DNA of 64,000 nucleotides from Mycolicibacterium porcinum (lineage in GTDB: Bacteria; Actinomycetota; Actinomycetes; Mycobacteriales; Mycobacteriaceae): contig MVIG01000019.1 of NCBI GenBank assembly GCA_002086835.1, forward strand, positions 1-64,000, read 5' to 3'. A model generated the notes under the pieces. It had not been told where the DNA came from. It did no database searches and saw only the letters and a program-made list of their open reading frames with translations. Of this stretch, positions 19,038 to 62,920 are shown one piece after another. Numbering within the stretch: the first letter of the stretch is position 1; every line of letters starts with the position of its first letter. Made by a program: the position numbers and the translations under genes.

Positions 19038-19051
19038 TAGAACCTGTTCCA
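19038..19051. promoter_or_regulatory. KstR-type operator TAGAACCTGTTCCA
   Basis: Exact match to TnnAACnnGTTnnA, the KstR (TetR-family, cholesterol catabolism) motif. It lies between the divergent fabG3 (start 19005) and DapB-like gene (start 19107) and could control both. Confidence 0.75.
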
Positions 19052-19106
19052 ATTTTGATGCCGGATCGGCATACTGCGATCAGACCGAACACCTGAGGAG
19101 ACCTGT

Positions 19107-20183
19107 ATGGCCATTCGCGTGGCGATCGTCGGCACCGGAAACTGCGGCCGGTTGGCCCTGATCCAGCTCATCGACGACCCCCGGTTCGAACTCGTCGCAG
19201 TGGGCACCTCGACCGAGGCGAAGGTCGGCCTGGACGCCGGCGAACTGGCCGGACTGGGCGGTGTCACCGGGGTCACCGCCACGCTGGGAATCGATGCCGC
19301 GATCGCCGCCAAACCGGACTGCCTGGTGTACTGCGCGATGGGTGACACCCGCCCCGTGGAAGCCACCCGCGATGTGATGGCCGCCCTGGCCGCCGGGATC
19401 AATGTGGTCGGCTCGGCCCCGGGCGGCCTGCAGTTCCCCTGGGGCGCGATGCCGGAAAAGGCCATCGCACGGGTCGAAGAAGCTGCTCAGTCGGGAAAGT
19501 CAAGCGTGTTCATCACCGGTGTCGACCCCGGGTTCGCCACCGACCTGGTGCCGTTCGCGATCGCCGGTACCTGTCAGCGCATCGATCAGATCAAGACCAT
19601 GGAGATCGCCGACTACGCCACCTATGACGGCACCGAGGTGATGTCGATCGTCATGGGATTCGGCAATCCGATCGACCAGCCCGGAATGTTGTTTCTCCCC
19701 GGAATCCTCAGCGCCGCTTGGGGAACCGCGATCCGGATGCTCGCCGCTGGATTGGGTGTCGAGGTCGAAGACATCACCGAGCACTACGAGTTGGAGCCCG
19801 CGCCCGAGGACATCGAGGTCGCGACCGGCGTCATCGCCAAGGGCACGGTGGCGGCGATGCGCTTCCAGATCAACGGCATGGTCGGCGGTAAGCCGGTGAT
19901 CGTCGTCGAACACGTCACCCGGGTGCGTGCGGACCTGCGGCCCGATTGGGCGCAACCGGCCCAGCCCGGCGGCTCCTACCGCGTCGAGATCGTCGGCGAG
20001 CCTTCCTACGTGGTGGACATCTGCCCGAGCAGCCGCAAGGGCGACCACAACCACGCCGCGATCGTGGCGGCGGCCGGGCGCATCGTGAACGCGATCCCCG
20101 ATGTGGTGGCCGCCGCGCCGGGCATCCACACCACCCTGGACCTGCCGCTGGTCACGGGCAAGGGCCTCCACAGGCTGGGCTAG
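19107..20183 (+). CDS. DapB-like NAD(P)-dependent dehydrogenase
   Basis: This 358-residue protein opens with a Rossmann fold (IRVAIVGTGNCGRLALIQL) and the DapB-type TSTEAKVGLDAGELAG segment, and resembles the mycobacterial dihydrodipicolinate-reductase-like/diaminopentanoate dehydrogenase-like proteins rather than true DapB, which is shorter. Substrate unknown. The ATG follows TGAGGAGAC by 7 nt, so this mRNA has a leader. Divergence from fabG3 across a shared KstR-type box suggests induction by sterol-derived ligands. Its stop overlaps the convergent HAD gene. Confidence 0.82.
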   Translation: MAIRVAIVGTGNCGRLALIQLIDDPRFELVAVGTSTEAKVGLDAGELAGLGGVTGVTATLGIDAAIAAKPDCLVYCAMGDTRPVEATRDVMAALAAGINVVGSAPGGLQFPWGAMPEKAIARVEEAAQSGKSSVFITGVDPGFATDLVPFAIAGTCQRIDQIKTMEIADYATYDGTEVMSIVMGFGNPIDQPGMLFLPGILSAAWGTAIRMLAAGLGVEVEDITEHYELEPAPEDIEVATGVIAKGTVAAMRFQINGMVGGKPVIVVEHVTRVRADLRPDWAQPAQPGGSYRVEIVGEPSYVVDICPSSRKGDHNHAAIVAAAGRIVNAIPDVVAAAPGIHTTLDLPLVTGKGLHRLG

Positions 20184-20944
20184 GCACCGGGACGGAGCCG
20201 GCGTTCGCCGCGGCGCCGGCCACCCGGGCGTGGCAGGTTGAGCACCGGCCAGTCCTGTTCGGCGGCGGCCGAGGCCAGCCCCGGCCGCGGATTCACCGGC
20301 CGTGGATGGCCCACCAATCGCATCAGTGCGCCGTCCTCGGGGCCGTCCGCGTAGAAGTAGCTGTGGGCCAGATCGACCTGTTCGGATCGGCAAAAGGCCT
20401 GCACCGCAGCGGCTTTGCGGGCCCCCCAGATGATCGGCTCGACGATCCCGCCGGTGAGCCGGCCCTGGTCGTCGGTCAGAAAGTGGTTGCACAGCACGTG
20501 GTCGATCCCCAGGTGCCGCGCGACCGGCTCGGCGTGAATGGTCAATGCCGACGAGCTCAACACGACGGTATGGCCGCGGTCCTGGTGACGCCGCACCACG
20601 TCACGCATGTGGGGATAGACGCGCTGGGCGATCCGGTTCTCGAACAGGTACTCCCCCAGCTCGTCGAGCTCGAGCAGGGATTCGCCGCGCAGGTACCCGG
20701 CCGCCCGCACCAGCAGCCGCTCGAACGGCATGCGGCCGATCCGGTAGCGCACCGAGGCCTCGAGGATTCCGAGGATCTCTCCGGCAGCCGCCTGCCGCCT
20801 GCGGATGCGATGACCGGCGTGCGCCGTCGCGGTGAATCCGTCCACCAACGTGCCGTCGAGGTCGAAGAAGGCGCCCACCCGCGCCCCGCCCGGTCCGGCA
20901 CCGATCTCCTCGAGTGACTCGGGTGGCGACAGCGTGCGGCCCAT
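20180..20944 (-). CDS. HAD-superfamily phosphatase (subfamily IB, SerB-like)
   Basis: This 254-residue phosphatase has motif I FFDLDGTLVDG (nucleophile Asp), motif II LSSSA, motif III Lys in GARKAAAV and acidic motif IV YADGPEDG, the subfamily IB order. In mycobacteria such domains dephosphorylate phosphoserine or lyso-lipid phosphates and are sometimes fused to PlsC; here the domain stands alone with a Pro/Arg-rich C-terminus. The ATG at 20944 removes an unlikely Trp-rich extension. It overlaps the convergent DapB-like gene by 3 bp. Confidence 0.83.
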   Translation of the reverse strand: MGRTLSPPESLEEIGAGPGGARVGAFFDLDGTLVDGFTATAHAGHRIRRRQAAAGEILGILEASVRYRIGRMPFERLLVRAAGYLRGESLLELDELGEYLFENRIAQRVYPHMRDVVRRHQDRGHTVVLSSSALTIHAEPVARHLGIDHVLCNHFLTDDQGRLTGGIVEPIIWGARKAAAVQAFCRSEQVDLAHSYFYADGPEDGALMRLVGHPRPVNPRPGLASAAAEQDWPVLNLPRPGGRRRGERRLRPGA

Positions 20945-21000
20945 GGGGCTACTAAACCAAGCCACTACGACACTCGGCCAATCGAGACTAGAAATGGGGA

Positions 21001-21366
21001 ATGACCCCAACCACACACTGCATAGGGATCAAGGACATCGCGGCCGTCATCGCCACCGGACGATTCGAGGAGGCAAAGGCCTGGTACACCCGGCTGCTCG
21101 ACCGCGGACCCGACCTGGAACCTGTTCCAGGAGTCGCCGAATGGCAGCTGACGGCGACGGCGTGGCTATAGGTCGTCACCGATCCCGCCTGCGCCGGGCG
21201 ATCGGCCGTGAGATTCGGCGTCGACGAACTGGACACCACCGCCGCCCGGCTGCGCGGCAATGGTGTCAGCGTGGCAGAACCGCAGGTCATCGCCGATATG
21301 GTCGCTGTCATCGACGTCGCCGATCCAGACGGAAATGAAGTGTCGTTCGTGGCCGAGCTCGCGTGA
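21001..21366 (+). pseudogene. VOC (glyoxalase/bleomycin-resistance) family gene interrupted by an amber codon
   Basis: Translation from ATG at 21001 gives a normal one-domain VOC protein of 121 residues (KDIAAVIATGRFEEAKAWYTRLL... VADPDGNEVSFVAEL) except for TAG at 21169-21171 (codon 57), where family members usually have WLQV or similar. The reading frame continues intact to TGA at 21364. A single CAG-to-TAG change explains this. Either the gene is freshly inactivated, or amber is read through. It is too short to be noticed as two separate frames. No ribosome site is clear. Confidence 0.75.
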
Positions 21367-21410
21367 ATCTGCCGGGTCTCGACCCAAAGCGGCCCAACGT
21401 GGTACTAAAC

Positions 21411-21424
21411 TAGAACACGTTTCA
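21411..21424. promoter_or_regulatory. KstR-type operator TAGAACACGTTTCA
   Basis: Exact TnnAACnnGTTnnA match 63 bp upstream of the nitronate monooxygenase ATG. The same 14 bases recur at 59415-59428. Confidence 0.75.
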
Positions 21425-21487
21425 CTTCTGTCCGGGCCGGATCGGCCGAGGACTCCCGAACCGCACCGTCACTCAAGGAGCTGGAGA

Positions 21488-22618
21488 ATGCACACCGCAC
21501 TCTGCGACGAGCTCGGGATCGAATTCCCGATCTTCGCGTTCACCCACTGTCGCGACGTTGTCGTCGCCGTCAGCAAGGCCGGCGGTTTCGGCGTGCTGGG
21601 CGCCGTGGGCTTCACGCCTGAGCAGCTGGAAATCGAGCTCAACTGGATCGACGAGCACATCGGCGACCACCCGTACGGCGTCGACATCGTCATCCCGAAC
21701 AAGTACGAGGGCATGGACGCCAACATGTCCGCCGACGAACTCAAGGGGATGCTGCAGTCTCTGGTGCCGCAGGAGCACCTGGACTTCGCCCGCAAGATCC
21801 TCGCCGACCACGGCGTACCGGTCGAACACAGCGACGACGATGCGCTGCAGCTTCTCGGCTGGACCGAGGCCACCGCGACCCCGCAGGTGGAAATCGCCCT
21901 CAAGCACCCCAAGATGACGCTGATCGCCAACGCACTCGGCACCCCGCCTGCCGACATGATCAAGCGCATCCACGCCGAGGGCCGCAAGGTCGCGGCGCTG
22001 TGCGGCTCGCCGTCACAGGCCCGTAAGCACGCCGACGCCGGTGTCGACATCATCATCGCCCAGGGCGGCGAGGCCGGCGGGCACAGTGGCGAGGTGGGCT
22101 CGATCGTGTTGTGGCCGCAGGTGGTCAAGGAGGTCGCTCCGGTGCCGGTGCTGGCCGCCGGTGGGATCGGCAGCGGTCAGCAGATCGCCGCGGCCCTGGC
22201 CCTCGGCGCCCAGGGCGCCTGGACCGGATCCCAGTGGGTCATGGTCGAAGAGTCCGAGCACACCGCGCAGCAGCACGCCGCGTACGCCAAGGCCACCAGC
22301 CGAGACACCGTGCGCAGCCGCTCGTTCACCGGCAAGCCGGCCCGTATGCTGCGCAATGACTGGACCGAGGCCTGGGAGAACCCGGACAACCCGAAGCCGC
22401 TCGGCATGCCGCTGCAGTACATGGTGTCCGGGATGGCCGTGGCCGCCACGCACAAGTACCCCAACGAGAGCGTCGATGTCGCGTTCAACCCGGTCGGCCA
22501 GGTCGTCGGCCAGTTCACCAAGGTCGAGAAGACCTCCGCCGTGATCGAACGCTGGGTGCAGGAGTACCTGGAGGCGACCGGCACCCTCAACGCCCTCAAC
22601 GAGGCCGCCGGGGTGTGA
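21488..22618 (+). CDS. Nitronate monooxygenase / 2-nitropropane dioxygenase-like FMN enzyme
   Basis: This 376-residue TIM-barrel flavoprotein has family landmarks: an N-terminal FPIFAFTHCRDVVVAVSKAGGFGVLG, the glycine-rich phosphate loop IIIAQGGEAGGHSGEVGS and VLAAGGIGSGQQIAAALALGAQGAWTGS. It oxidises alkyl nitronates or an analogous substrate using FMN. Some mycobacterial members belong to the KstR regulon (Rv1894c, from memory), which fits the operator upstream. The ATG at 21488 follows GGAG by 6 nt. The next gene starts in its last codons (GTGA overlap). Confidence 0.88.
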   Translation: MHTALCDELGIEFPIFAFTHCRDVVVAVSKAGGFGVLGAVGFTPEQLEIELNWIDEHIGDHPYGVDIVIPNKYEGMDANMSADELKGMLQSLVPQEHLDFARKILADHGVPVEHSDDDALQLLGWTEATATPQVEIALKHPKMTLIANALGTPPADMIKRIHAEGRKVAALCGSPSQARKHADAGVDIIIAQGGEAGGHSGEVGSIVLWPQVVKEVAPVPVLAAGGIGSGQQIAAALALGAQGAWTGSQWVMVEESEHTAQQHAAYAKATSRDTVRSRSFTGKPARMLRNDWTEAWENPDNPKPLGMPLQYMVSGMAVAATHKYPNESVDVAFNPVGQVVGQFTKVEKTSAVIERWVQEYLEATGTLNALNEAAGV

Positions 22619-23061
22619 TCGAGGCCGCCGGCAGCGGGTTCCTCATTGCCGTCCTGTGGATGGACCTGATCTTCGACGTTCAGGTCCTACCCCACCGCAG
22701 GTCGGCCGAATTACCGGAACCCGTGCTGGCGTCCATCGCCGGTTATTACCGCCGGGCGACCACCACATCGCGCCCGATGAGCCTGCTGATCGCCGCCGTC
22801 ATGGCAATCCTGTTGGCGGCATTGGCTTTTCGTGCATTCGGCGGGGCCGGCGCAGGGTGGTTGACGGCGCTGTTCGCGATCTTGGCCGGCGCCCCCGTGT
22901 TGCTGGCGCTGCTGCGCACCGTCCCCAATGCCGCGGCCCTTGGTTCACGTACCGGCAGCCCTTGCGAGCAGACGCGGTTGGCCCGCGCCGTCTGCCGTGA
23001 CCATCTGATCTGCCTGACGAGCATGGCCGCCTTCCTCGTGCTGTGGCTGGCGGTCACCTAG
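22615..23061 (+). CDS. Four-helix membrane protein of unknown function
   Basis: This 148-residue integral membrane protein has four hydrophobic segments (about 8-25, 55-75, 80-101 and 130-147). Its GTG overlaps the nitronate monooxygenase stop by 4 bp, so it is probably translationally coupled and under the same KstR-type control. Charged residues after helix 1 (LPHRRSAELPEP) and a cysteine-containing loop (GSPCEQTRLARAVCRDHLICL) are its only notable features. I do not recognise the family. Confidence 0.72.
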   Translation: MIEAAGSGFLIAVLWMDLIFDVQVLPHRRSAELPEPVLASIAGYYRRATTTSRPMSLLIAAVMAILLAALAFRAFGGAGAGWLTALFAILAGAPVLLALLRTVPNAAALGSRTGSPCEQTRLARAVCRDHLICLTSMAAFLVLWLAVT

Positions 23062-23172
23062 CCGTTTGATGCGCCTGTGCGGCGGGTTGCGGTCACTATC
23101 AAGCAGCAATCCGCCGCACAAGCCCGGACACTGCGGATCCACACCCAGCCAGGCCGTAGACCCGCGCCCGCC

Positions 23173-23198
23173 GATTATGTATGGTTCCATACATAATC
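23173..23198. promoter_or_regulatory. Perfect 26-bp palindrome, TetR autoregulatory operator
   Basis: Arms GATTATGTATGG and CCATACATAATC are perfect inverted repeats around TT. The AT-rich element ends 17 bp before the tetR start and contrasts with the GC-rich surroundings. Position and shape are typical of autoregulated TetR-family operators. Confidence 0.85.
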
Positions 23199-23215
23199 CG
23201 GCGAAAGGGTTCCCG

Positions 23216-23781
23216 ATGACCGGTCCTCGCGAACGCATGGTGGCCTCGGCCGCACTGCTGATCCGGGAGCGCGGCGCGCACCCGACGGCGATCGCCGACG
23301 TACTCGCCCACAGCGGCGCACCGCGCGGATCGGCCTACCACTATTTCCCCGGCGGGCGCAGCCAACTCCTGTGCGAAGCCATCGATTACGCCAGCGATCA
23401 GGTGGCCGCGCGGATCGACAAGGCCGACAGCGCGGCGGCTCTGCTCGACGCCATGATCGCCGGGTTCCGGAAACAATTGTCCGCCAGCGACTTCCGGGCC
23501 GGCTGCCCGATCGTCGCGGTCGCCGTCGAGGCCGGAGAACCCGGCACGACCGAAACCGCCGCGCTCGACCGCGCAGGCGCCGCGTTCACCCGCTGGACCG
23601 CTCAGATCACCCGACGACTGACCGACGACGGAGTTCCCGCCGAACGTGCCGAGGAGTTCGCGACGCTGATCATGACGGCGATCGAAGGCGCCGTGGTGAT
23701 GGCGCGGGCGACTCGCGACGTCAAACCGCTCGAGAAGATCCACCGTCAACTTCGCGCACTCCTGCCGGAAGGAACCCCGTC

Positions 23782-23785
<4 letters not shown>
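23216..23785 (+). CDS. TetR-family regulator (Rv0196-like)
   Basis: This 189-residue repressor has an N-terminal HTH: ADVLAHSGAPRGSAYHYFPGGRSQLL (about 30-56), the recognition-helix pattern of TetR/YxaF-type proteins, then a helical ligand domain. It sits 17 bp after a perfect palindrome and overlaps the molybdoenzyme gene by 4 bp (ATGA), the same order as M. tuberculosis Rv0196-Rv0197. It probably represses itself and the oxidoreductase and is released by a small ligand that cannot be inferred. Confidence 0.9.
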
Positions 23786-26031
<2,246 letters not shown>

Positions 26032-26046
26032 TCAGATTCCCGGCCC

Positions 26047-26667: not shown

Positions 26668-26755
26668 AACTGGTTGGCCTCCTGCTGTTGCTCCAGGGAC
26701 AGATGGTAACGCTGGGTGAATCGTCGCGCTCGTTCAATCGTTACAACGCAAGAAC

Positions 26756-26769
26756 CGGAACACGTTCCA
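26756..26769. promoter_or_regulatory. KstR-like operator CGGAACACGTTCCA (one mismatch)
   Basis: Matches TnnAACnnGTTnnA except for C in place of the first T, with a symmetric GGAAC-AC-GTTCC core. It lies 107 bp upstream of the CYP125-like gene, a family controlled by KstR in M. tuberculosis. Confidence 0.6.
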
Positions 26770-26876
26770 ATACGAACAATGACGGAGTTTCCGAAACCCA
26801 CTCCGAGGGGCCCCACCTGTGGTGTAGCAATGGCCTTACGCCACTACACAACGTCGTCGCGAGGAGTGCCAACGCC

Positions 26877-28157
26877 ATGCCGACTCTGAATCTTCCGCCC
26901 GGATTCGACTTCACGGACCCCGACATCTACGCCGAACGGCTGCCAGTGGAGGAGCTCGCCGAGATGCGCAGGCTCGCGCCGATCTGGTGGAACGAACAGC
27001 CGAAGGGCCAGGGAGGGTTCGACGACGGCGGGTTCTGGGTCGTCACCAAGCACAAGGACGTCAAAGAGGTATCCCTGCGCAGCGACGTGTTCTCCAGCCA
27101 GGAGAAGACCGCCCTGCCGCGCTATCGGGAGGGCACCGTCCAGCAGCAGATCGACCAGGGCAAGTTCGTGATGCTCAACATGGACGCCCCGCATCACACG
27201 CACCTGCGCAAGATCATCTCGCGGGCCTTCACCCCACGCGCGGTCGAACGTCTGCGGGCCGACCTGGCCGAGCGCGCGCGCACGATCGTGGAGACCGCCG
27301 CCGCCGAGGGCTCGGGAGATTTCGTCGAGCAGGTTTCGTGCGAACTGCCGCTCCAGGCCATCGCGGGGCTCATGGGCGTCCCGCAGGAGGACCGCAAGAA
27401 ACTGTTCGACTGGTCCAATCAGATGGTCGGCGACCAGGACCCCGAGTTCGCCTCCAACGATGCGATCAGCGCCTCGGTCGAGTTGATCATGTACGGCATG
27501 CAGATGGCGGCCGAGCGGACGAAGAACCCCGGCGAGGATCTGGTCTCCACGCTCCTGCAGGCCGACGTGGAGGGGCACAAGCTCTCCGATGACGAATTCG
27601 GCTTCTTCGTCATCCTGCTCGCCGTGGCGGGCAACGAGACCACCCGCAACTCCATCACCCAGGGAATGATGGCGTTCGCCGACCATCCCGACCAGTGGGA
27701 GTTGTTCAAGCGGGAGCGCCCGGGCACCGCCGCCGACGAGATCGTGCGATGGGCCACGCCGGTGACCTCATTTCAGCGGACGGCGCTGGAGGACACCGAA
27801 CTGGCCGGTGTGCCGATCAAGAAGGGCCAGCGGGTGGTGATGTTCTACCGCTCGGCGAATTTCGACGAGGACGTGTTCGACGATCCGTACACCTTCAACA
27901 TCTTGCGTGATCCCAATCCGCACGTGGGATTCGGCGGGACGGGAGCGCACTACTGCATCGGTGCCAACCTCGCCAGGATGACCATCGACCTGATCTTCAA
28001 CGCGATCGCCGACGTGATGCCCGACCTGACCCCACTGTCCGCGCCCGAACGGCTGAGGTCGGGCTGGCTGAACGGGATCAAACATTGGCAGGTCGACTAT
28101 CGAGGCGGCGCTGACGCGAAACCTCCCGTGTCGCAGCAGGGCTCGGATAGTCGATGA
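26877..28157 (+). CDS. CYP125-family steroid C26/27 monooxygenase (cytochrome P450)
   Basis: The 426-residue P450 closely follows remembered M. tuberculosis CYP125A1: NLPPGFDFTDP near the start, FVMLNMDAPHHT, AGNETTRNSITQGMMAF (I-helix, 251 on), E288xxR291, and heme Cys360 in GTGAHYCIGANLAR. CYP125 oxidises the terminal methyl of the cholesterol/cholestenone side chain. It lies outside the main cholesterol cluster, so it is probably a paralogue with its own sterol preference. GAGGAG precedes the ATG by 10 nt; the KstR-like box is upstream. Confidence 0.92.
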   Translation: MPTLNLPPGFDFTDPDIYAERLPVEELAEMRRLAPIWWNEQPKGQGGFDDGGFWVVTKHKDVKEVSLRSDVFSSQEKTALPRYREGTVQQQIDQGKFVMLNMDAPHHTHLRKIISRAFTPRAVERLRADLAERARTIVETAAAEGSGDFVEQVSCELPLQAIAGLMGVPQEDRKKLFDWSNQMVGDQDPEFASNDAISASVELIMYGMQMAAERTKNPGEDLVSTLLQADVEGHKLSDDEFGFFVILLAVAGNETTRNSITQGMMAFADHPDQWELFKRERPGTAADEIVRWATPVTSFQRTALEDTELAGVPIKKGQRVVMFYRSANFDEDVFDDPYTFNILRDPNPHVGFGGTGAHYCIGANLARMTIDLIFNAIADVMPDLTPLSAPERLRSGWLNGIKHWQVDYRGGADAKPPVSQQGSDSR

Positions 28158-28434: not shown

Positions 28435-28477
28435 CCTTGCCTCCTTCGTGGGGACGTGATCCACGGTGCCGCTGATC

Positions 28478-28498
28478 GGGTAATCAGCGCAATTACCC
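28478..28498. promoter_or_regulatory. Inverted repeat GGGTAAT-N7-ATTACCC, candidate operator
   Basis: Perfect 7-bp arms separated by 7 bp lie between the divergent small membrane gene (start 28434) and the XRE regulator. The spacing between arm centres is near one and a half helical turns and suits a dimeric HTH regulator. Confidence 0.6.
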
Positions 28499-28542
28499 CT
28501 CAGGTAGTGGTCTTGTCGCGGCGCGTGGGTGAGACTCGGGTG

Positions 28543-29316: not shown

Positions 29317-29327
29317 GCGGACCGCGC

Positions 29328-29358: not shown

Positions 29359-29391
29359 GTCCGGCAAGGCTCTCTGGCTCAGGGTGCGGGT

Positions 29392-30003: not shown

Positions 30004-30008
30004 TCTCG

Positions 30009-50256: not shown

Positions 50257-50262
50257 GGCTGA

Positions 50263-52501: not shown

Positions 52502-52505
52502 CCGG

Positions 52506-52871: not shown

Positions 52872-52926
52872 CGGATCGGTATTACCGGCGCGAGCATCGC
52901 GCAAACGCTCAGATACGCACGCGCAC

Positions 52927-54297: not shown

Positions 54298-54326
54298 GAC
54301 CTCATTGTGCGCCGAGGCGCGGTGAG

Positions 54327-54809
54327 CTAGAGCGTGATCTTGCAGGTTTGGCCGATGTCGAGGGTCCGAAGCATCCGGCCCATCCCGAGCCACATCGCAC
54401 ACGACAACGCCAGGTCCGTCAGCAGCTCCGCATCGAACTGCTCGCCGGCCCGCTCCCAGAAGTCCTCGTCGTCCCGCAGCCCGGTGTGATCACTCGCGAA
54501 CCGCGCGGCGAACTCGGCGGCGACGCGCTCCTGCGGACTGTAGCCCGGCCAGGTCCGCCACTCGGCGGCGTGATCGTAGAGATCCTCGTCCACCCCCGCC
54601 GCGGCCCCGTCGGAGTCGCGGGTGTTCTGGCACACCACGCATTCGTTGTCGAGCGCGATCACCATCCGGGCCAGCTCGCGCACCCGCAATGGCAACCGCC
54701 CCTTGGTGTACACCGCGTTCGTGTAGTTGGCCATGGCGGTGCCGATCTCGGGAGACCTGAGGATCCAGCCGGCCACGTCGTCGTCGGGAAATTCTCCGAT
54801 ACGGCTCAT
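54327..54809 (-). CDS. CMD/AhpD-like protein
   Basis: The 160-residue protein has the AhpD-type CxxC (NECVVCQNTRDSDGAAAG, about 56-73), whose cysteines are the redox pair of the carboxymuconolactone-decarboxylase-like family. It lies between glnA3 and the MFS gene on the same strand. The start at ATG 54809 is supported by a KstR-type operator 30 bp upstream. It may detoxify hydroperoxides or be a decarboxylase for catabolic intermediates. Confidence 0.82.
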   Translation of the reverse strand: MSRIGEFPDDDVAGWILRSPEIGTAMANYTNAVYTKGRLPLRVRELARMVIALDNECVVCQNTRDSDGAAAGVDEDLYDHAAEWRTWPGYSPQERVAAEFAARFASDHTGLRDDEDFWERAGEQFDAELLTDLALSCAMWLGMGRMLRTLDIGQTCKITL

Positions 54810-54839
54810 GGCCGAATCGTACGCGCGCGGCGACAATTC

Positions 54840-54853
54840 TGGAACAAGTTCTA
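54840..54853. promoter_or_regulatory. KstR-type operator TGGAACAAGTTCTA
   Basis: Exact TnnAACnnGTTnnA match, 30 bp before the AhpD-like gene. It overlaps the TAG stop of the upstream MFS gene (54851-54853), as the box at 59415-59428 overlaps a stop. Confidence 0.72.
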
Positions 54854-56908
54854 GTTTTTGCTTCCCGGGCTGGTCAGTTCCGCCTCCCGGTCGTCTCCCC
54901 AGTCCCGCTGCACCACGACCCGGTGGGCGATGCGCTCCAGGGCGGCCTCCACCTGCGCCCGGTCCGGGCGCCCTTCGAAGGACGGTGATTCGCCCAGCTT
55001 GTCGACGATCCGCCCGACCAGCGCCGCGGACACACCGTCGACCTGCCGTGCCCCGCTCTGGGTCAGCCACAGGCTGTCCCCGGTACGCAACACATACCCG
55101 TCCTGCACCAGCCGGTTGAAGGTCGGCTCGAGTACCTCGAACGGCACCATCAACCGATCGGCGATCTCGGTCAGCCGGGCAGAGCCGAAGATCTGTCCGT
55201 GCCGGTAAATCTTGAGCAGAGCCCACAACCCCGCCACGTCGAGCTCACATCCCGGGCCACCGGCCACGTTGCGTAGCCGGATCTCGGGCGAGCTCCGCAT
55301 CAGCCGGCTGACCACCGTTTCCAGTACCTGATCCGAGGATTCGGCGCTGGGCATGCCGAAACCTTCGCCGAGGTCGCCGGCCAGTGTCGTCTCCGCTTCG
55401 ATCAAAGGCACTTCCTTGAGGAACAGCGCCACGATCAGCCCGACCAGTGCCACCGGCGCAGCACACAGGAACACCAGGTCCAGCGCATCGGAGTACGCGG
55501 TCACGATCGGCGCGGCGATGTCCGGCGGCAGTTCGTGCAAGGCCTTGGGCGATGCACCCGCGACAGGCGGGGCCCCGCTGGCGGCGAGCGCCCCCGGCAG
55601 CCGGTCCGACAGGAATCCGGCGAACAGCGAACCGAAAATGGCAGCACCGAAAGAACTCCCGATGGTCCGGAAGAACGTCACGCCGGACGTCGCGACGCCC
55701 AGGTCGGCGAAATCGGACGTGTTCTGCACGATGAGGACGAGCACCTGCATACACATGCCGATACCGGCGCCGAGGATCAGTAGATACAGCGATTGCAGCG
55801 GGATCGGTGTCGCGGCATTCATCCGCGACAGCAGCACGAAGCCGACGAGCATGATCGCCGTACCGGCGACCGGATAGATCTTGTAGCGCCCGGTGCGGCC
55901 CACCAGACTGCCGCTGACGGTCGAGGTGATCAGCAGCCCGATCACCATCGGCATCGTCCGCAGCCCGGACTCCGACGGCGACACGCCGTCCACGAACTGC
56001 ATGAAGGTGGGCATGAAGGTCAGCGCACCGAGCATCGCGAATCCGACCACCAGCGACAGCACGCAGCACATGGTGAAGACGGGGTTCCGGAACAGCCGCA
56101 TCGGCAGAATCGGTTCGGCCGCCTTGGTTTCGGCCCGCACGAACATCGCCAGGGCCAGGATCGAGCCGACGACCAGACCGATGATGGTCGGTGACGTCCA
56201 AGCCAACTCGCCGCCGAGGCTGGTGGCCAGGGTGAGGCCGGATGCCCCGATTCCGACCCAGACGATTCCGGCGTAGTCGATCACCGGACGGACCGGCCGG
56301 GACGTCAGCGCCGGGATGGTGGCGGCCGCGACCACGAGCACAACCACGCCGACCGGGATGCTGAGCCAGAATGCCCACCGCCAGCCCAGGTGATCGGTGA
56401 CGAAGCCGCCGAGCAGTGGGCCCGCGACGGTCGTGACACCGAATACCGCCCCGAGCGCGCCCTGATACCGCCCGCGGTCCCGCAGTGGGATGACCTCTGC
56501 GATGAGGGCCGAGGAGGTCACCATGATCGCGCCGCCGCCGATGCCCTGCAGCGCCCGCGCCGCCACCAGCATGACCATCGAACCGGACAGGCCGCTGAGG
56601 ATCGACCCGACGAGAAAACACAGGACCGCCGCCTGGTACACCACTTTGCGGCCGAAGATGTCGCCGACCTTCCCGACGACGGCGGTGACGACCGTGGAGG
56701 CCAGCAGGTAGCTCGTCACCACCCACGCCTGATGCCCGGCGCCGCCGAGGTCCGCCACGACCGTCGGGAGCGCGGTGGCGACGATGGTCTGGTTCAGCGA
56801 GGCCAGCAGCATGCCGAGCAGCACGGCGACGAACACCAGGTTGCGCCTGCGCACGCTCAGCAGCGCCGCTCCGGAGGTCTGCTCGGCGGTGGTTGATGGG
56901 CTGGACAT
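54851..56908 (-). CDS. DHA2-type MFS drug exporter with C-terminal winged-helix domain (Rv1877-like)
   Basis: The 685-residue transporter has 14 hydrophobic segments, the DHA2 motif LNQTIVATALPTV in TM1 and GKVGDIFGRKVV in the first cytoplasmic loop. Residues about 570-670 form a soluble domain with a winged-helix pattern (LLKIYRHGQIFGSARLTEIADRLMVPFEVLEPTFNRLVQDGYV). In M. tuberculosis Rv1877 is the corresponding gene next to bfrA and glnA3. It should export drugs or metabolites, possibly gated by the extra domain. Confidence 0.88.
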   Translation of the reverse strand: MSSPSTTAEQTSGAALLSVRRRNLVFVAVLLGMLLASLNQTIVATALPTVVADLGGAGHQAWVVTSYLLASTVVTAVVGKVGDIFGRKVVYQAAVLCFLVGSILSGLSGSMVMLVAARALQGIGGGAIMVTSSALIAEVIPLRDRGRYQGALGAVFGVTTVAGPLLGGFVTDHLGWRWAFWLSIPVGVVVLVVAAATIPALTSRPVRPVIDYAGIVWVGIGASGLTLATSLGGELAWTSPTIIGLVVGSILALAMFVRAETKAAEPILPMRLFRNPVFTMCCVLSLVVGFAMLGALTFMPTFMQFVDGVSPSESGLRTMPMVIGLLITSTVSGSLVGRTGRYKIYPVAGTAIMLVGFVLLSRMNAATPIPLQSLYLLILGAGIGMCMQVLVLIVQNTSDFADLGVATSGVTFFRTIGSSFGAAIFGSLFAGFLSDRLPGALAASGAPPVAGASPKALHELPPDIAAPIVTAYSDALDLVFLCAAPVALVGLIVALFLKEVPLIEAETTLAGDLGEGFGMPSAESSDQVLETVVSRLMRSSPEIRLRNVAGGPGCELDVAGLWALLKIYRHGQIFGSARLTEIADRLMVPFEVLEPTFNRLVQDGYVLRTGDSLWLTQSGARQVDGVSAALVGRIVDKLGESPSFEGRPDRAQVEAALERIAHRVVVQRDWGDDREAELTSPGSKN

Positions 56909-56980
56909 GTCTTCCTTTCACCTGCCTGCCAGTTCAACCACGATATCGTTAGATAAGCTATGAAAGTTACAGCACCAACA

Positions 56981-57026
56981 AAGCCGCCCCGGGCGACCGG
57001 CGGTCACCGGCTACCCAGGGCGGCTT
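56981..57026 (-). terminator. Hairpin terminator after bfrA
   Basis: Arms AAGCCGCCC and GGGCGGCTT (9 bp, perfect) enclose GC-rich inner pairing and are followed on the minus strand by CTTTGTT. It is 22 bp beyond the bfrA stop and fits an intrinsic-like terminator. Confidence 0.6.
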
Positions 57027-57047
57027 CGGTCGAAACGGGTGCGGAGC

Positions 57048-57527
57048 CTAGTGAGGCGGCCGGGACACGCACTGCGCGGCGTAGAGCGCGTCACCCAACT
57101 TCTCCATGAGCTCAAGCTGGGTTTCCAGGTAGTCGATGTGACCTTCCTCGTCGGCCAGGATGCCTTCCAGGATGTTCGCCGAGGTGGCATCCTGCTTCTC
57201 CCGGCACATGATGATGCCGGGCTTCAGCCGGGCCACCACCTCGTACTCGATCGCCAGGTCCGCCTCGAACTGTTCGCGCAGCGTCTGGCCGACGCGCAGC
57301 GAAAACAGCCGCTGATAGTTGGGCAGGCCGTCCAGGATCAGGATTCTGTCGGTGATGGTCTCCGCGTGCCGCATCTCCTCGAAAGATTCGGCGCGGGTGT
57401 GTTCGGCCAGTTCGGTAAATCCCCAATTGTCTTGCATTTTCGAATGCAGGAAGTATTGGTTAATTGCGGTGAGTTCGCTCGTCAATTGCTCATTGAGCAA
57501 TTTCAGAACATCCGGATCGCCTTGCAT
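57048..57527 (-). CDS. bfrA: Bacterioferritin BfrA
   Basis: The 159-residue protein has every ferroxidase ligand at canonical position: Glu18, Glu51, His54, Glu94, Glu127 and His130, plus heme-binding Met52 in FEEMRHAE. It assembles into a 24-mer that oxidises and stores iron. AGGAG precedes the ATG by about 6 nt. An IdeR-like box lies 188 bp upstream between it and the divergent unit at 57770, and a bfd gene is nearby for iron release. Confidence 0.96.
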   Translation of the reverse strand: MQGDPDVLKLLNEQLTSELTAINQYFLHSKMQDNWGFTELAEHTRAESFEEMRHAETITDRILILDGLPNYQRLFSLRVGQTLREQFEADLAIEYEVVARLKPGIIMCREKQDATSANILEGILADEEGHIDYLETQLELMEKLGDALYAAQCVSRPPH

Positions 57528-57714
57528 CGTGACTCCTAAGCACCTTGAGGGCTGGTCAAGTGTTGCCGTATGCCGTGCACGTCCAATCTAGTGCAGAAAG
57601 CACTGCGGGACGCAATGGTTGGCAGCTAATTCGGCGTGTTCTGCCACATTGCCGGACCCCCCGTGGACACTCGGGCCGAGGCGTGGCCACGAAGAGTGGA
57701 CTGGCTGCCCTAAC

Positions 57715-57733
57715 TAAGGTTAGACTGCGCTAA
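57715..57733. promoter_or_regulatory. IdeR-like iron box (TAAGGTTAGACTGCGCTAA)
   Basis: The 19-bp site matches the IdeR consensus (TTAGGTTAGGCTAACCTAA) at 14 positions by eye. It is 36 bp before the ATG at 57770 and overlaps a -10-like TAATCT (57731-57736), as expected for an iron-dependent repressor; it may instead help regulate bfrA. Confidence 0.65.
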
Positions 57734-57769
57734 TCTGCTGGTGTACCTCAAAAGAAAGGCCGGTAACGA

Positions 57770-58405
57770 ATGAGTGAGTACGATTTACACTCGCTCATTC
57801 TCTCGTGCGATTTCCGCGTCGACGACGTCGAACAAATGTGGAAATGGATGAAGAAACACCGGTCCGGCCTATTGTCGATCGGCGCCCATCACGTGGTCCT
57901 CTACAAATCAATTTGGGAGCCCGGCCGGGTATTGGTGACGATCGGCATCCGCCACGCCCGATCCATCCGCGACGTATTGCGTTCACCAGCGATCTTCGAA
58001 TGGTTCGATATTTCCGGCGTCGAAGATATTCCACCGATATTCGGCGGCGAAGTGGTCGAGAAAATCGACCTGACCGAACCGTCGCCGGAAGGGCACGTCG
58101 CCGGGGTGATCGTCGGCGCGGTGGCCACCGTCGACGACGTCCCCACCTTGATGCGCAAGGTGCACGACGGGCTCGACCGCTTCGAGCAGGGTGGCATCCG
58201 CAAGATCTGGGTCTACCAGGCGCTCGACGACGGCCAGGAAGTGATGACCCTGCAGGAGGTCTCCGACGAGATCAGCGCCCGGCAGTGGATCGACCACCCC
58301 GACGCGGCCGCCGAGTGGATGACCACCGCCGGTTTCGGTGCGTACCCCAGCCTGTTCGTGGGCAAGTTGGCCTACATCATGAACGTCGACGAGCAGGACG
58401 ACTGA
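57770..58405 (+). CDS. Iron-box-associated internally duplicated protein of unknown function
   Basis: The 211-residue protein shows two aligned halves: each begins xVDDV (residues 17-21 and about 121-125) and has a following strand-helix pattern (HVVLYKSIWEPGRVLVTIGIRHARSIRDVLRSPAIFEWFDISG versus KIWVYQALDDGQEVMTLQEVSDEISARQWIDHPDAAAEWMTTAG). This looks like a tandem ferredoxin-like or dimeric alpha+beta barrel fold. It stands behind an IdeR-like box and overlaps bfd by 1 bp (TGATG). Role in iron or heme handling is inferred from context only. Confidence 0.75.
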   Translation: MSEYDLHSLILSCDFRVDDVEQMWKWMKKHRSGLLSIGAHHVVLYKSIWEPGRVLVTIGIRHARSIRDVLRSPAIFEWFDISGVEDIPPIFGGEVVEKIDLTEPSPEGHVAGVIVGAVATVDDVPTLMRKVHDGLDRFEQGGIRKIWVYQALDDGQEVMTLQEVSDEISARQWIDHPDAAAEWMTTAGFGAYPSLFVGKLAYIMNVDEQDD

Positions 58406-58620
58406 TGTTCGTCTGCCTCTGCACCGGCGCGACCAGTCAGGTCGTCAACGAGATCGTGGAATCCGGGGCCACGACCTCCAAAGAGGTCGCCGAGGCCTGC
58501 GGCGCGGGGGCCGATTGCGGGCGGTGCCGGCGCACGATCCGCGCCATCATCGCCGCCCATCAGGCAGCCGAGGGCCGCCCGTCGGAGTTCAACGGCTGCC
58601 CCTCGCGCATCACGCGCTAA
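58405..58620 (+). CDS. bfd: Bacterioferritin-associated ferredoxin (Bfd)
   Basis: The 71-residue protein has the four Bfd cysteines (Cys4, Cys6, Cys38, Cys41: FVCLC and DCGRC) that hold a [2Fe-2S] cluster. Bfd reduces the heme/iron core of bacterioferritin to release iron, so it should work with BfrA encoded on the other strand 880 bp away. Its translation is coupled to the unknown 57770 protein. Confidence 0.9.
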   Translation: MFVCLCTGATSQVVNEIVESGATTSKEVAEACGAGADCGRCRRTIRAIIAAHQAAEGRPSEFNGCPSRITR

Positions 58621-59372
58621 CGCTTGCGATCGGCGAACTGAGCCAGTGCATCGATGTTGGCCGCCGCGCCGACGAGCTCGCCGAACAATGCCTTCTCCCG
58701 TTCCACGGCTGCCGAGATCTGCTCCCGAATCGGCGCCACCATGGCCTGCTTGACGGCGATCAGGCTCGAAATCGGCTTGGCCGCCAGGGTTTCGGCGTAC
58801 CGGCGGGCCTCGGTCAACAGGTCGTCGGGCTCACAGACCTGCCACACCAGGCCCATCTCCCGCGCCTCGGCGGCGCCCACCCACTCCGAGGACATCAGCA
58901 GCCAGGTGGCATTCTGCCTGCCGAGCAGCCGCGGCATCAGGTACGACGAGGCCGCCTCCGGCGCCACCCCCAGGCTGGTGAACGGACACTTCAACCGCGC
59001 CGAGGACGACATGAACGCCAGGTCGGCGAATCCGAGGATGGTGGCGCCGATACCCACGCCGACCCCGTTGACCGCGCAGATCAACGGCTTCGGGAAATCG
59101 GCGAGCACGTCGAGCATCCCGTAGAACCCATGCTCACCCGGGGTGGAATCCGGGTTGCTGATGCGCTCCTGCATCTCGACGAGGTCATTGCCCGCGCTGA
59201 AGGCGCGACCGGCCCCGGTCAGCAGCACCACCGCCACGTCGGGATCCTCGGCCGCGGCGCGCAGGGCAACCGTCGTCTCGTCATACAGCGCCTCGTTGAA
59301 CGCGTTGAGCGCGTCCGGGCGGTTGAGGGTCAGCGTGCGAACCCGGTTGTTGTCCTCGATCAGCAGGGTCAT
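58617..59372 (-). CDS. Enoyl-CoA hydratase/isomerase
   Basis: The 251-residue crotonase-fold protein has oxyanion motifs (GAGRAFSAGNDL and NGVGVGIGATILGFADLAF) and a C-terminal trimer helix. The catalytic Glu pair is only partly visible: Glu at SLGVAPEAASS aligns with one. It hydrates or isomerises an enoyl-CoA, and a KstR-type box 43 bp upstream suggests sterol or fatty-acid breakdown. It converges with bfd (4-bp overlap). Confidence 0.9.
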   Translation of the reverse strand: MTLLIEDNNRVRTLTLNRPDALNAFNEALYDETTVALRAAAEDPDVAVVLLTGAGRAFSAGNDLVEMQERISNPDSTPGEHGFYGMLDVLADFPKPLICAVNGVGVGIGATILGFADLAFMSSSARLKCPFTSLGVAPEAASSYLMPRLLGRQNATWLLMSSEWVGAAEAREMGLVWQVCEPDDLLTEARRYAETLAAKPISSLIAVKQAMVAPIREQISAAVEREKALFGELVGAAANIDALAQFADRKR

Positions 59373-59414
59373 CTCTCACTCCTCGCGTGCACGCCGTGAC
59401 CGCTGCAGCCTAAC

Positions 59415-59428
59415 TAGAACACGTTTCA
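59415..59428. promoter_or_regulatory. KstR-type operator TAGAACACGTTTCA
   Basis: Exact TnnAACnnGTTnnA match, identical to the site at 21411. It overlaps the EthD-like gene stop (59426-59428) and lies 43 bp before the enoyl-CoA hydratase start. Confidence 0.75.
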
Positions 59429-60154
59429 CTCCGTTGGGGCGGGGGCGGCGAGACCCCCGGCGAAAGGCGTGGCGTAGACGTAACGGCTGGTCGGCACGGT
59501 GTCGATATTGCTGCTCGCGCCGAAGGCGTCCGTGCTGGCCACCATGCGACGCATCCGGTCGGCCAGATCGTCATCGTCGGAGGCACCGAAGAACGCGTGC
59601 AGATCCGACACCGCGCCCTGGCGGAACAACTCCTCCACGATGCCGTCGATCGCCGGGGCATCCTCCGTGAGGGCGCGGACCACCGTGTTCTGCGTGTAGC
59701 CGAACGTGTCCTGAGTTTCGATCGCCACCGAAGTGTGGTCGAGGTGCCAGCGGTGCAGCCAGGTGGCCTCATCCAGGTCCGCGGGCCTGCGCAGCAGCGC
59801 GATGTTGGCCAGCCCGTCGGTCCGCTCCCCCACCGCGGTGACCGGGGCCGGCATCGGAACGGATTCGGTGACCAGATATGCCGCGATCGAATCACATTCG
59901 GCAGCAAGCACTTCCAAGGCCCGACCGGTCTGATCGCCGTAGTACTGCTGAACCCACAGGCTCACCACCGCGACCACCGGCGGGTCCAGCGTCGTCAACG
60001 TCATCAACGACTCCCGCACCGCGTCGTCGCGAACATTGACCGCCAGGCCCGGCAGTCCGAGCGCCAGCAGCTCGCCGGCGACGCGGGTGCGCAGCCGCTC
60101 GCACCACTGCTGATCCGAATGCTCCGCGCGCAGCAGAACGATGACTTTCTCCAC
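59426..60154 (-). CDS. EthD-domain-like protein
   Basis: The 242-residue protein has an EthD-like region (about 100-200: LLRRPADLDEATWLHRWHLDHTSVAIETQDTFGYTQN) of the dimeric alpha+beta barrel class, with an N-terminal domain of unclear origin. EthD proteins often accompany P450s in ether degradation, but no such operon is here. GTG start follows TAGGTT (60163-60168) by 8 nt, possibly a leaderless promoter. Substrate or role unknown. Confidence 0.75.
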   Translation of the reverse strand: MEKVIVLLRAEHSDQQWCERLRTRVAGELLALGLPGLAVNVRDDAVRESLMTLTTLDPPVVAVVSLWVQQYYGDQTGRALEVLAAECDSIAAYLVTESVPMPAPVTAVGERTDGLANIALLRRPADLDEATWLHRWHLDHTSVAIETQDTFGYTQNTVVRALTEDAPAIDGIVEELFRQGAVSDLHAFFGASDDDDLADRMRRMVASTDAFGASSNIDTVPTSRYVYATPFAGGLAAPAPTE

Positions 60155-60239
60155 GGTGGGAGAACCTACCGGCGCACCGATCCGCGCCACGCGTGGGTGG
60201 TTGCCCCACCGGCAGCCCGCAGCGAGTGAGAATGGTGGA

Positions 60240-62267
60240 GTGCACACGGGTGGACAGGCAGCCGATGCGCTCCGGCTGAGCACCCCCGACGCCGGAGCGG
60301 TGGCCCGCAGTCTGATCGGCGTCCTGGGAGTGACCGCGATCGCCCTGGCGCTGGGTTCCGGTGCGACCGCGATGTGGACGCTGAGCGGAGGCGTGATCGC
60401 CGGCGCGATCGCGCTGCAGCGTAGCCCCGGCGGCCGGGTCCCACTCGTCGTGACCGGCTCCGTGGAACTGGCCATCGCGGTGCTGCTCGGCACCCTCACC
60501 GGATGGCACAGCCCGGTGTTCATCGCCGCGGTGGCGCTGTGGTGCTTCGCCGCAGGCATGCAGTGGTCGCTCGGCGCCAACGCCGGCCTGGTCGCGTCCG
60601 CCGCCAGCGCTCTGCTGGTGCTGGCACCACCGGTCGCCCCGACCGTGGGACAGGCCCTGCTGGCACCCGTCCTGGTGGTGCTCGCGGGCGTCGTGCAGGC
60701 GACGCTCATCGCCGTCTGGCCGCCGCGGCGCTGGCGGGCCCAGCGCGACGGACTCACCCGCGCCTACCGGTCGTTGGCCACCGACTCCCGCAACGTCGCG
60801 GCGAACAGCGCCGCCGACGTCGACGACGCACCGCTGACCTGGCTGCGAGAGGTGTTCGCCGACAGCCAGGTCAGCCAGCGGCCGCGGGCCTACCACGGCG
60901 GGTACCGGTTGCCGGAACGCCTGGCAGGCACCCTCGCGTCGTTGCACGCCAGCGCCGAACGTGACGATCGCGACGATGAGACCGGCGAATCCGCGACCGA
61001 TGCCGGGCTGACGCAACTGCTGACGGCCGCCGCGGTGTTGCTCGACGCGATCGCCGACCACGGCCACACGGCGCGACGGGACGCCGAGCATGCCCTGGTG
61101 CGCGTCCAAACAGCCGCGGCCGCCGTGACAGGACCCGACGCGGCGCTGGCCCAGCGATTCTGCGAACAACTGCGGGAGGCTGCGGCCCTTCGGTTCGGCC
61201 AGCTGCACCGGCCCGACCTGATCGGCTCACTGGCCTCCGCGCCCGCCGTGGTGCGCTCACATCTGACCTGGACCTCCCCCATCCTGCGCCACGCCATCCG
61301 GCTGTCGGTGACGACGGCCGTGGCAGTGGCCGCGGCCCGATACGGCGGGCTCGAGCACGCCTACTGGATGCCGTTGACCGTCGTGGTGGTGCTGCGCCCG
61401 GAGACGGCCCACACTTACACCCGCTGCGCCGGGCGCATCGCCGGCCTGTGCGTCGGCATCATCGTCGCCTCGGTCCTCACGTTCATGTGGCAGCCCGGCC
61501 CGGTCAGCTCGGCGGTCTGCGCACTGGTGTTCGTCGGGCTGGCTTACGGTGTCGCACAGTTCGGCTATCTGGCCGTCGGCGCGACGGTGGGTGCGATCGT
61601 GATGTTCGCCGTCGGGGTGAGCGCCTCGGCGCCGTGGTCGGGCAACGCGGACCGACTCTTCGCGGTGCTGATCGGCGGCGCGCTGGCCGTGATGGCACAC
61701 GTGGCGCTGCCCGATCACGCGCTGATCCGGTTGCGGCAGCGGGCCGGAGAACTGCTGATGACCGAAATCGACTATGCCGCGCTGGTGATCAAGGCGTTCG
61801 TGCATGAAATCGACCACCCGGCCGAGATCCTATCCGCGGCGTGGCAGCGGGCGTTCCGCGCGCGGGCGGCATTCGAGGCCGCGTGGGGCGCGACGAGTCT
61901 GGACCCGCCGATCCTGCGGCGTTGGTTGCGGTCCTACCGCACCGCGCTGAACTCGGTGACCAGCGCCTGCACCACGCTGGAGAACAGCCTGCCGACCCAT
62001 CCGTCGTCGGCACTGCACAGCGAATTCGTCGCCGCGGTGGACGATTACGTGGAGGCGCTGCGCGGTGCACCACCGAGCCCCGCCGTGCCGTGGAGCCTGG
62101 ACACCGCCGAACTGTCGGCCGCACTGCGCCGCGTCCACAACGTGGCCTCGACACTGTCTGCCGACAACGGCGCCGCCCGCATCCTGATCGGCGAGCTGAC
62201 CACGATCACCCGCAGCCTCGAGGAGATCGCGATCGATCGCGTCGAGCCCGCCGGCGACTCGCGCTAG
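60240..62267 (+). CDS. FUSC-family membrane transporter
   Basis: The 675-residue protein has two blocks of hydrophobic helices (about 22-155 and 375-515) separated by soluble domains, the FUSC/YccS/AaeB-like pattern, with the second block in the segment HAYWMPLTVVVVLRPETAHTYTRCAGRIAGLCVGI. These export hydroxylated aromatic acids or similar compounds. The GTG at 60240 is preferred for a clean start, though no strong ribosome site is present. It is 1 bp short of the thioesterase gene's 3' end (convergent). Confidence 0.82.
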   Translation: MHTGGQAADALRLSTPDAGAVARSLIGVLGVTAIALALGSGATAMWTLSGGVIAGAIALQRSPGGRVPLVVTGSVELAIAVLLGTLTGWHSPVFIAAVALWCFAAGMQWSLGANAGLVASAASALLVLAPPVAPTVGQALLAPVLVVLAGVVQATLIAVWPPRRWRAQRDGLTRAYRSLATDSRNVAANSAADVDDAPLTWLREVFADSQVSQRPRAYHGGYRLPERLAGTLASLHASAERDDRDDETGESATDAGLTQLLTAAAVLLDAIADHGHTARRDAEHALVRVQTAAAAVTGPDAALAQRFCEQLREAAALRFGQLHRPDLIGSLASAPAVVRSHLTWTSPILRHAIRLSVTTAVAVAAARYGGLEHAYWMPLTVVVVLRPETAHTYTRCAGRIAGLCVGIIVASVLTFMWQPGPVSSAVCALVFVGLAYGVAQFGYLAVGATVGAIVMFAVGVSASAPWSGNADRLFAVLIGGALAVMAHVALPDHALIRLRQRAGELLMTEIDYAALVIKAFVHEIDHPAEILSAAWQRAFRARAAFEAAWGATSLDPPILRRWLRSYRTALNSVTSACTTLENSLPTHPSSALHSEFVAAVDDYVEALRGAPPSPAVPWSLDTAELSAALRRVHNVASTLSADNGAARILIGELTTITRSLEEIAIDRVEPAGDSR

Positions 62268-62268
62268 C

Positions 62269-62898
62269 TCACCCGCGCGCCCACTTCGGCAAGATGAAAA
62301 CGCCCTCGGCCTCGGCGGTGACGCCCTCGGCGTCGGAAACGTGGCCGGAGGCAAAGGCTTTGATTCCATCTGTGCGCGTGATCCGGCCCTCGGCATGCAG
62401 ATCGCCCAGCGGGGTTGCCCGCAGATAGCGGATGGTCAGCGTGCCGGTGAACCGCGGGCGGTCCGAATCGCTGGCCGCCACCTCCCCCAGCACGTGATCG
62501 AGCACCATGGCCACCATGCCGCCGTGGACATGGCCGGGCGGACCCTCGTAGGGGGCGCCGAGGTGGAAGTCCGTGTGGACACCGCCGTCGGAGTCCTTGA
62601 CCATCACCAGGGGCGGCGCTATCGGGTTACGGATACCGATAGCCGGGTTGCCCCACGGCATCCGGGTCCCGTCCGACGTGAACTGGACGCCGAACGGCCC
62701 GTCGATCTGGTCGGCCCGCAACCGCGCGGTGGCGTCGTCGATCTGGGCCCGCACGGCGGCCACCTCGCCGGCGTCGACCTGCGAGCGGATGCTGGCATCG
62801 ATCAGGGCCCGCACCGACTCGGCCAGCGGCGCCCACACCGACCGCAACCGCTGCACGTCGGCCGAACTGAGACCCTCGACATGGGTGTATCCCGGCAT
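62269..62898 (-). CDS. PaaI-type hotdog thioesterase
   Basis: The 209-residue protein has the PaaI-like HGG motif in GHVHGGMVAMVLDHVLGE (about 131-148) and a long N-terminal helical extension. It should hydrolyse an acyl- or aryl-CoA. A KstR-type operator ends 9 bp before the ATG, overlapping the likely start region, so tight steroid-linked control is likely. Confidence 0.86.
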   Translation of the reverse strand: MPGYTHVEGLSSADVQRLRSVWAPLAESVRALIDASIRSQVDAGEVAAVRAQIDDATARLRADQIDGPFGVQFTSDGTRMPWGNPAIGIRNPIAPPLVMVKDSDGGVHTDFHLGAPYEGPPGHVHGGMVAMVLDHVLGEVAASDSDRPRFTGTLTIRYLRATPLGDLHAEGRITRTDGIKAFASGHVSDAEGVTAEAEGVFILPKWARG

Positions 62899-62906
62899 TG
62901 GTGAAC

Positions 62907-62920
62907 TAGAACATGTTCGA
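62907..62920. promoter_or_regulatory. KstR-type operator TAGAACATGTTCGA
   Basis: Exact TnnAACnnGTTnnA match between the divergent thioesterase (start 62898) and TPR gene (start 62958). Confidence 0.72.

Follow-up and report, generated by a model that had tools for sequence, protein, structure and literature searches.

Repressor operators that lie in front of unrelated genes raise the question of whether they belong to one regulon and which of the neighbouring genes it serves. We asked this of the first 64,000 nucleotides of contig MVIG01000019.1 of Mycolicibacterium porcinum (G000:C14:1-64000; hereafter the window), which has a GC content of 68% and makes up less than 1% of a genome of 6.96 Mb in 102 contigs. 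A sequence-only reading had proposed that six sites, at 19038, 21411, 26756, 54840, 59415 and 62907, are KstR-type operators of a dispersed steroid or lipid-catabolic regulon, some of whose members had not been linked to sterol use. Our analysis indicates that the six sites are very probably operators of the TetR-family repressor KstR and part of a dispersed lipid/sterol regulon. The dispersed regulon itself is already known, and for four of the six sites a counterpart in M. smegmatis has been published. Judged by the genes behind them, the targets would be a divergent pair of short-chain dehydrogenase/reductase (SDR) and DapB-like genes, a nitronate monooxygenase, a CYP125-like P450, an AhpD-like protein, a predicted enoyl-CoA isomerase and a 4HBT thioesterase, the last two being probable further members.

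Six sites scored against published operators and shuffled DNA

The motif TnnAACnnGTTnnA fits five of the six sites exactly and 26756 with one mismatch, as had been stated. Exact matches in the window number eight, with 0.15 expected, and none of 100 shuffles reached eight. An 18-column matrix was built from 42 of the 47 sites in Table 3 of Kendall 2007 (PMC1995591), holding out the Rv1894c site and four M. smegmatis sites that resemble those of the window. The six named sites took ranks one to six in the window (27.6, 25.6, 25.6, 23.3, 22.6 and 20.8 bits) and fell within the range of the training sites (18.9 to 31.9 bits), whereas the top score over 100 dinucleotide shuffles was 16.1 bits. This comparison with shuffled DNA was one of the checks that the sequence-only reading had set, and it came out in favour of the sites. 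Each lies 9 to 121 bp upstream of the start codon taken for its target, in agreement with the claim that all sit in front of genes, and the identity reported for 21411 and 59415 over 14 bases extends over all 18 matrix columns.

Three other exact matches to TnnAACnnGTTnnA, at 21116, 28891 and 53690, had been left unlisted. All are inside open reading frames (ORFs); 21116 and 28891 have the next scores after the six (15.4 and 12.1 bits), and 53690 is outside the top 25 of the window. On the 14-mer alone 21116 reaches 20.1, inside the range of the six sites. We rejected the three as operators because they are intragenic and score lower once the flanks are included, and their omission was sound.

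Across the genome, the loose motif occurs at 83 places compared with 40 for its reversed control, the strict form at 27 compared with 7, and the variant in which one half is perfect at 42 compared with 22. Since the loose form is only twofold over its control, we regard the loose consensus as insufficient alone and the matrix as sufficient. Among the 69 places of the strict and one-perfect-half forms, 42 have a score of at least 16 over the 14 core columns, and the window holds seven of these, two of them intragenic. Given the small share of the genome that the window covers, this points to a small secondary cluster of sites.

The genome also carries a kstR gene (L096:1660-2337; match to KstR in PDB entry 5ua2, E 8e-117). 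Upstream of it is a near-consensus site that differs from the published kstR 20-mer at one position, and across that site on the opposite strand lies an ORF that by eye resembles an acyl-CoA dehydrogenase, in the position of fadE34. By analogy with published work, a KstR dimer would bind each palindrome at or near the promoter, bound KstR would block RNA polymerase and repress transcription, and a cholesterol-derived intermediate would release the repressor and allow induction. Excerpts of PMC4881515 give the inducer as 3-oxo-4-cholestenoic acid.

Published counterparts and conservation of the sites

While the operators proposed by the sequence-only reading are supported by the matrix and by the kstR gene, the dispersed regulon is not new, as KstR targets outside the main cluster were already a result of Kendall 2007. 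A comparison of 20-mers with Table 3 of that paper gave M. smegmatis counterparts for four window sites. The 20-mer at 19036 is within two mismatches of the MSMEG_3515/3516 site, that at 54838 differs from the MSMEG_3562 site at one position, that at 21409 differs from the MSMEG_3519 site at four, and that at 26754 differs from the MSMEG_3522/3524 site at five of 20. By this measure the 20-mer at 59413, with three mismatches, is closer to the MSMEG_3519 site than that at 21409. It is 21411 that we tie to Rv1894c/MSMEG_3519, because it shares 22 consecutive nucleotides with the Rv1894c probe, which KstR shifted in an electrophoretic mobility-shift assay (EMSA; PMC1995591), and has a nitronate monooxygenase gene behind it. 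According to the same table, reverse-transcription quantitative PCR (RT-qPCR) was positive for MSMEG_3519.

Sites of at least 17 bits were counted as conserved; the tallies come from a script recount, and the genomes compared are related and do not represent independent events. The site between the SDR and DapB-like genes was conserved in 22 of 30 DapB loci, with the window counted. Six of the eight loci without it have the SDR gene on the strand of the DapB-like gene, and the other two have no SDR match in the stretch.

The DapB-like gene was one of those described as unlinked to sterol use. We rejected it as DapB (4-hydroxy-tetrahydrodipicolinate reductase), with TIGR00036 at 25 bits against a cut-off of 122, and as 2,4-diaminopentanoate dehydrogenase, with NF040740 (ornith_Ord) at 112 bits against a cut-off of 400; the protein passes PF19328, the C-terminal domain model of the latter family. 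A second DapB-like gene in the genome (C26:178863, 58% identical) follows an SDR gene that has a 25.7-bit KstR site upstream. Of 297 genomes of the genus, 20 contain the MSMEG_3562 20-mer, and ten of its loci, when inspected, had either the second SDR and DapB pair (six) or AhpD with glutamine synthetase (four). Because SDR and DapB are paired at two loci with KstR sites, and because there is a counterpart among the published sites, we tie the DapB-like family to the KstR regulon, in which the protein may use NAD(P)H to reduce a steroid intermediate. In a literature search for dihydrodipicolinate reductase with steroid, mycobacteria or KstR, the term was absent among the matches listed. The second pair (G000:C26:177985; L138:2486) has as neighbours, by eye, genes for a Ku-like protein and an Nramp-type transporter.

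The nitronate monooxygenase site was kept in all seven DapB loci whose stretch reaches the start of that gene (window counted). Just upstream of this operator, a short ORF at 21001-21171 ends at an in-frame stop (21169-21171) in a frame that by eye is open to about 21366, and it may be a decayed gene. Between the nitronate monooxygenase and P450 genes lies a molybdopterin oxidoreductase gene (23371-26031), and no KstR site above 10 bits was found within it or between it and the nitronate monooxygenase gene. The P450 site is the least conserved of the three left-hand sites, reaching 17 bits in 9 and 15 bits in 14 of the 30 loci compared (window counted; paralogues may be among these best matches). 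The same genome has a second P450 relative (C22:57631, 67%), with a KstR-type 14-mer at C22:57465. Excerpts of PMC4881515 identify MSMEG_3524 as CYP125 and MSMEG_3561 as glutamine synthetase. A glutamine synthetase gene adjoins the AhpD-like gene in the window, and the AhpD site was conserved in 25 of 39 AhpD loci.

Elsewhere in the genome, a 28.6-bit KstR site (L140:1673; G000:C26:128172) separates two divergent genes, both of which look like luciferase-type flavin monooxygenases by eye, and a perfectly palindromic site of 31.8 bits (L139:1682; G000:C26:161181) lies at the starts of divergent ORFs that by eye are like the major facilitator superfamily (MFS) and luciferase.

Table 1. Candidate KstR operators and associated genes in the window
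Feature	Position	Strand	Remarks
Putative operator between fabG3-like SDR and DapB-like genes	19038..19051		27.6 bits; within 2 mismatches of the MSMEG_3515/3516 20-mer
SDR, FabG3 / 20beta-hydroxysteroid-dehydrogenase-like	18268..19005	-	Pfam adh_short_C2 8e-63; putative counterpart of G155_16070
DapB-like / 2,4-diaminopentanoate-dehydrogenase-related oxidoreductase	19107..20183	+	PF19328; PDB 6g1h 1.3e-16
Putative operator of nitronate monooxygenase gene	21411..21424		25.6 bits; 22 nt identical to EMSA-positive Rv1894c probe
Nitronate monooxygenase, Rv1894c/MSMEG_3519-type	21488..22618	+	Pfam NMO 9e-44; probable correspondence, from the operator
Putative operator of CYP125-like gene (one mismatch)	26756..26769		23.3 bits; counterpart MSMEG_3522/3524
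Cytochrome P450, CYP125-like	26877..28157	+	Pfam p450 1e-20 on longer ORF
Putative operator of AhpD-like gene	54840..54853		22.6 bits; 1/20 mismatch to MSMEG_3562 site; overlaps stop codon of MFS ORF 54851-56908
AhpD-like carboxymuconolactone-decarboxylase family protein	54327..54809	-	PF02627 7e-9 on longer ORF
Putative operator of crotonase gene	59415..59428		25.6 bits; overlaps stop codon of upstream-side ORF
Crotonase, predicted enoyl-CoA isomerase (E139), not EchA19	58617..59372	-	Pfam ECH_1; PaaG alignment
Putative operator overlapping predicted -10 of thioesterase gene	62907..62920		20.8 bits, weakest of six
Predicted leaderless promoter	62905..62934	-	-35 TCGACA (62929-62934), 18 bp, -10 TCTAGT (62905-62910), start codon 6 bp on; suggested by upstream regions
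Hotdog (4HBT) thioesterase	62269..62898	-	PF03061 1e-8; PDB 2ov9 7e-22
Gene called tetratricopeptide repeat (TPR) by the sequence-only reading	62958..64000	+	runs off window; probable bystander

Predicted isomerase and thioesterase genes

The target at 59415 had been called an enoyl-CoA hydratase. It is a crotonase with a putative operator, but its active site is isomerase-like. Glutamate 139 aligns with the PaaG aspartate (PaaG 4fzw_C, 139 bits), a residue that we take to be catalytic, and is conserved without exception in the 80 relatives. Glutamate at positions 111-113 or 131, which are presumably those of the hydratase acids judging from general crotonase motifs, occurs in none of the 80. 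Because a single invariant acid stands at the PaaG position and the hydratase positions have no glutamate, the protein is likely an enoyl-CoA isomerase of the ECI/PaaG type. EchA19 was rejected as its identity, since the EchA19 equivalog model gave 137 bits against a cut-off of 400. The isomerase may act on unsaturated acyl-CoAs of the plant-sterol side chain, such as those unsaturated at C24(28). A literature search for enoyl-CoA isomerase with KstR or the sterol side chain did not have the term among the matches listed.

The top relatives of this crotonase are in Mycobacterium sp. DL99 (96%) and Mycolicibacterium septicum (94%), which would put the host with the rapidly growing mycobacteria of the M. 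fortuitum kind. Its site was conserved in 42 of 80 related loci, 17 of them mycobacterial and 25 in Nocardioides, Rhodococcus and related Propionibacteriales; around these 25, no other neighbour family recurs in more than eight. On the tree, the label for the site changes 7 times compared with a shuffled mean of 27, in a comparison where near-copies favour clustering. The site is either old with losses or has been gained repeatedly, and several mycobacterial clades are without it. A crotonase paralogue (66%) is found in the same genome at G000:C15:252056 (L194). One 4-kb contig binned as Bifidobacterium breve (L045; CAMCWJ010000272.1) carries relatives of the isomerase and AhpD-like genes, and the tree places it with mycobacteria; it is probably mis-binned.

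Upstream of the thioesterase gene, close relatives have a common layout of TCGACA, about 18 bp, TCTAGT, six bases and the start codon, which we therefore read as a leaderless promoter. Of the two halves of the operator, the inner one, TGTTCTAGT, overlaps the -10 box, and 29 of 34 loci carry it without a mismatch; the outer one sits in the promoter spacer, and the whole operator has at least 17 bits in 15 of 34. Scores extend up to 31.9 bits (L041 and L044) and down to 6.5 bits (L016, L017 and L022), with 25 to 32 bits in several more distant relatives. In a pattern search of 294 genomes, the -10/start pattern of the thioesterase gene was found in 11; the outer half-site was read in ten besides that of the window, and the operator scored 3.1 to 26.5 bits in those ten, some of which may be the same species. 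One locus set (L199) has sites of 24.6 bits at AhpD, 24.1 at the isomerase and 16.2 at the thioesterase, and another (L200) has 24.6 at AhpD and 27.1 at the thioesterase with none above 15 at the isomerase. The thioesterase may serve to free CoA or to remove dead-end esters.

On the other side of this promoter lies the gene called TPR, which had been put forward as a target; no NCBIfam family was found for it. Taking 130 bp as the limit for adjacency, the gene is a neighbour in 13 of the 34 thioesterase loci, and the operator has at least 17 bits in 3 of these 13. Among the 21 loci in which it is not adjacent, 12 have a strong operator. Since most strong operators thus occur without the TPR gene beside them, this gene is probably a bystander, and we rejected it as a KstR target on the ground that it fails to stay beside a strong operator.

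The claim of members unlinked to sterol use is thus altered in its content, with the DapB-like gene tied to the regulon, the TPR gene set aside, and the isomerase and thioesterase as likely additions. These two genes matched no entry in Table 3 of PMC1995591, a comparison that did not cover its 83-gene Table 4, and they were not found as named KstR targets in literature that did not include the full site list of PMC6593523 (Additional file 3). Both additions may already be listed in that Table 4 or that supplement.

Competing explanations and relation to known systems

Several observations weigh against treating all six sites as working KstR operators. A site of at least 17 bits is missing in 38 of 80 isomerase loci, 14 of 39 AhpD loci, 8 of 30 SDR/DapB loci, 19 of 34 thioesterase loci and 21 of 30 P450 loci; conservation is weak at the thioesterase and P450 sites, and L016 and L017, which are the nearest relatives, have a decayed form of the thioesterase operator. 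Kendall and colleagues regarded five of their 31 M. smegmatis motifs as doubtful, RT-qPCR is entered as ND for three of the four counterparts, and the M. tuberculosis motif site at Rv0223c showed no binding by EMSA (PMC1995591, Table 3). Related sites might also be read by the KstR relatives that the genome encodes, at 45% and 35% identity.

The most serious competitor holds that only four or five sites work, 62907 being a relic whose inner half is kept as the -10 box and 26756 being marginal. We consider this possible, although short of an even chance. The site at 62907 is the weakest of the six, its outer half is decayed in close relatives and the whole site scores 3.1 to 12.7 bits in several; the P450 site is likewise conserved in few loci. 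However, 62907 scores inside the range of the training sites and the same site is strong in several more distant relatives, and 26756, at 23.3 bits, has a published counterpart. That a KstR paralogue rather than KstR reads some of the sites appears improbable: one relative (C28:37490) is 45% identical over residues 41-221 and excerpts of PMC3388012 give two to three KstR paralogues in environmental mycobacteria, but the 3.5-kb loci of the two nearest KstR relatives contain no KstR-type site above 10 bits and so no sign of autoregulation by this motif. Chance matches in GC-rich DNA can be given almost no weight; the modest genome-wide excess of the loose pattern would suit them, but the matrix test refutes them, as 100 shuffles stayed at or below 16.1 bits with all six sites at 20.8 or more, and the sites are conserved across species. 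KstR control of the six sites thus remains the preferred reading.

A further proposal, which we offer only tentatively, joins two parts. The stand-alone isomerase may be a KstR target common to Mycobacteriaceae, Rhodococcus and Nocardioides, with varied neighbours, that serves a missing step in the breakdown of unsaturated plant-sterol side chains; and the thioesterase promoter may illustrate exit from the regulon, in which the spacer half of the operator decays, the -10 half is kept and the gene would pass from repressed to constitutive within one species group.

This work mostly confirms a well-studied regulon in one more mycobacterium, and its added value is small but testable. It adds two candidate sterol-breakdown enzymes, one with a precise predicted activity, in relatives of strains with which steroid drugs are made from plant sterols. 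The operators in graded decay offer a natural series for how genes leave repressor control.

The closest known system is the KstR regulon of M. smegmatis and M. tuberculosis, with which the window shares, as far as Table 3 of PMC1995591 extends, the motif, dispersed sites and four counterparts (MSMEG_3515/3516, 3519, 3522/3524 and 3562). For Mycobacterium sp. VKM Ac-1817D, PMC6593523 gives 57 operons as having predicted KstR sites, of which 43 contain genes induced by phytosterol, and names the 3alpha(20beta)-hydroxysteroid dehydrogenase G155_16070 and the 2-nitropropane dioxygenase G155_16090 among genes with KstR sites; these are likely counterparts of the SDR and nitronate monooxygenase of the window. 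With EchA19, a known KstR-controlled enoyl-CoA hydratase, the window crotonase has in common the crotonase fold and predicted KstR control; unlike EchA19, it falls below the cut-off of the EchA19 model and is without glutamate at the hydratase positions. In this it resembles the PaaG/ECI-type isomerases, from which it is distant by sequence but with which it shares the single acid at the position of the PaaG aspartate.

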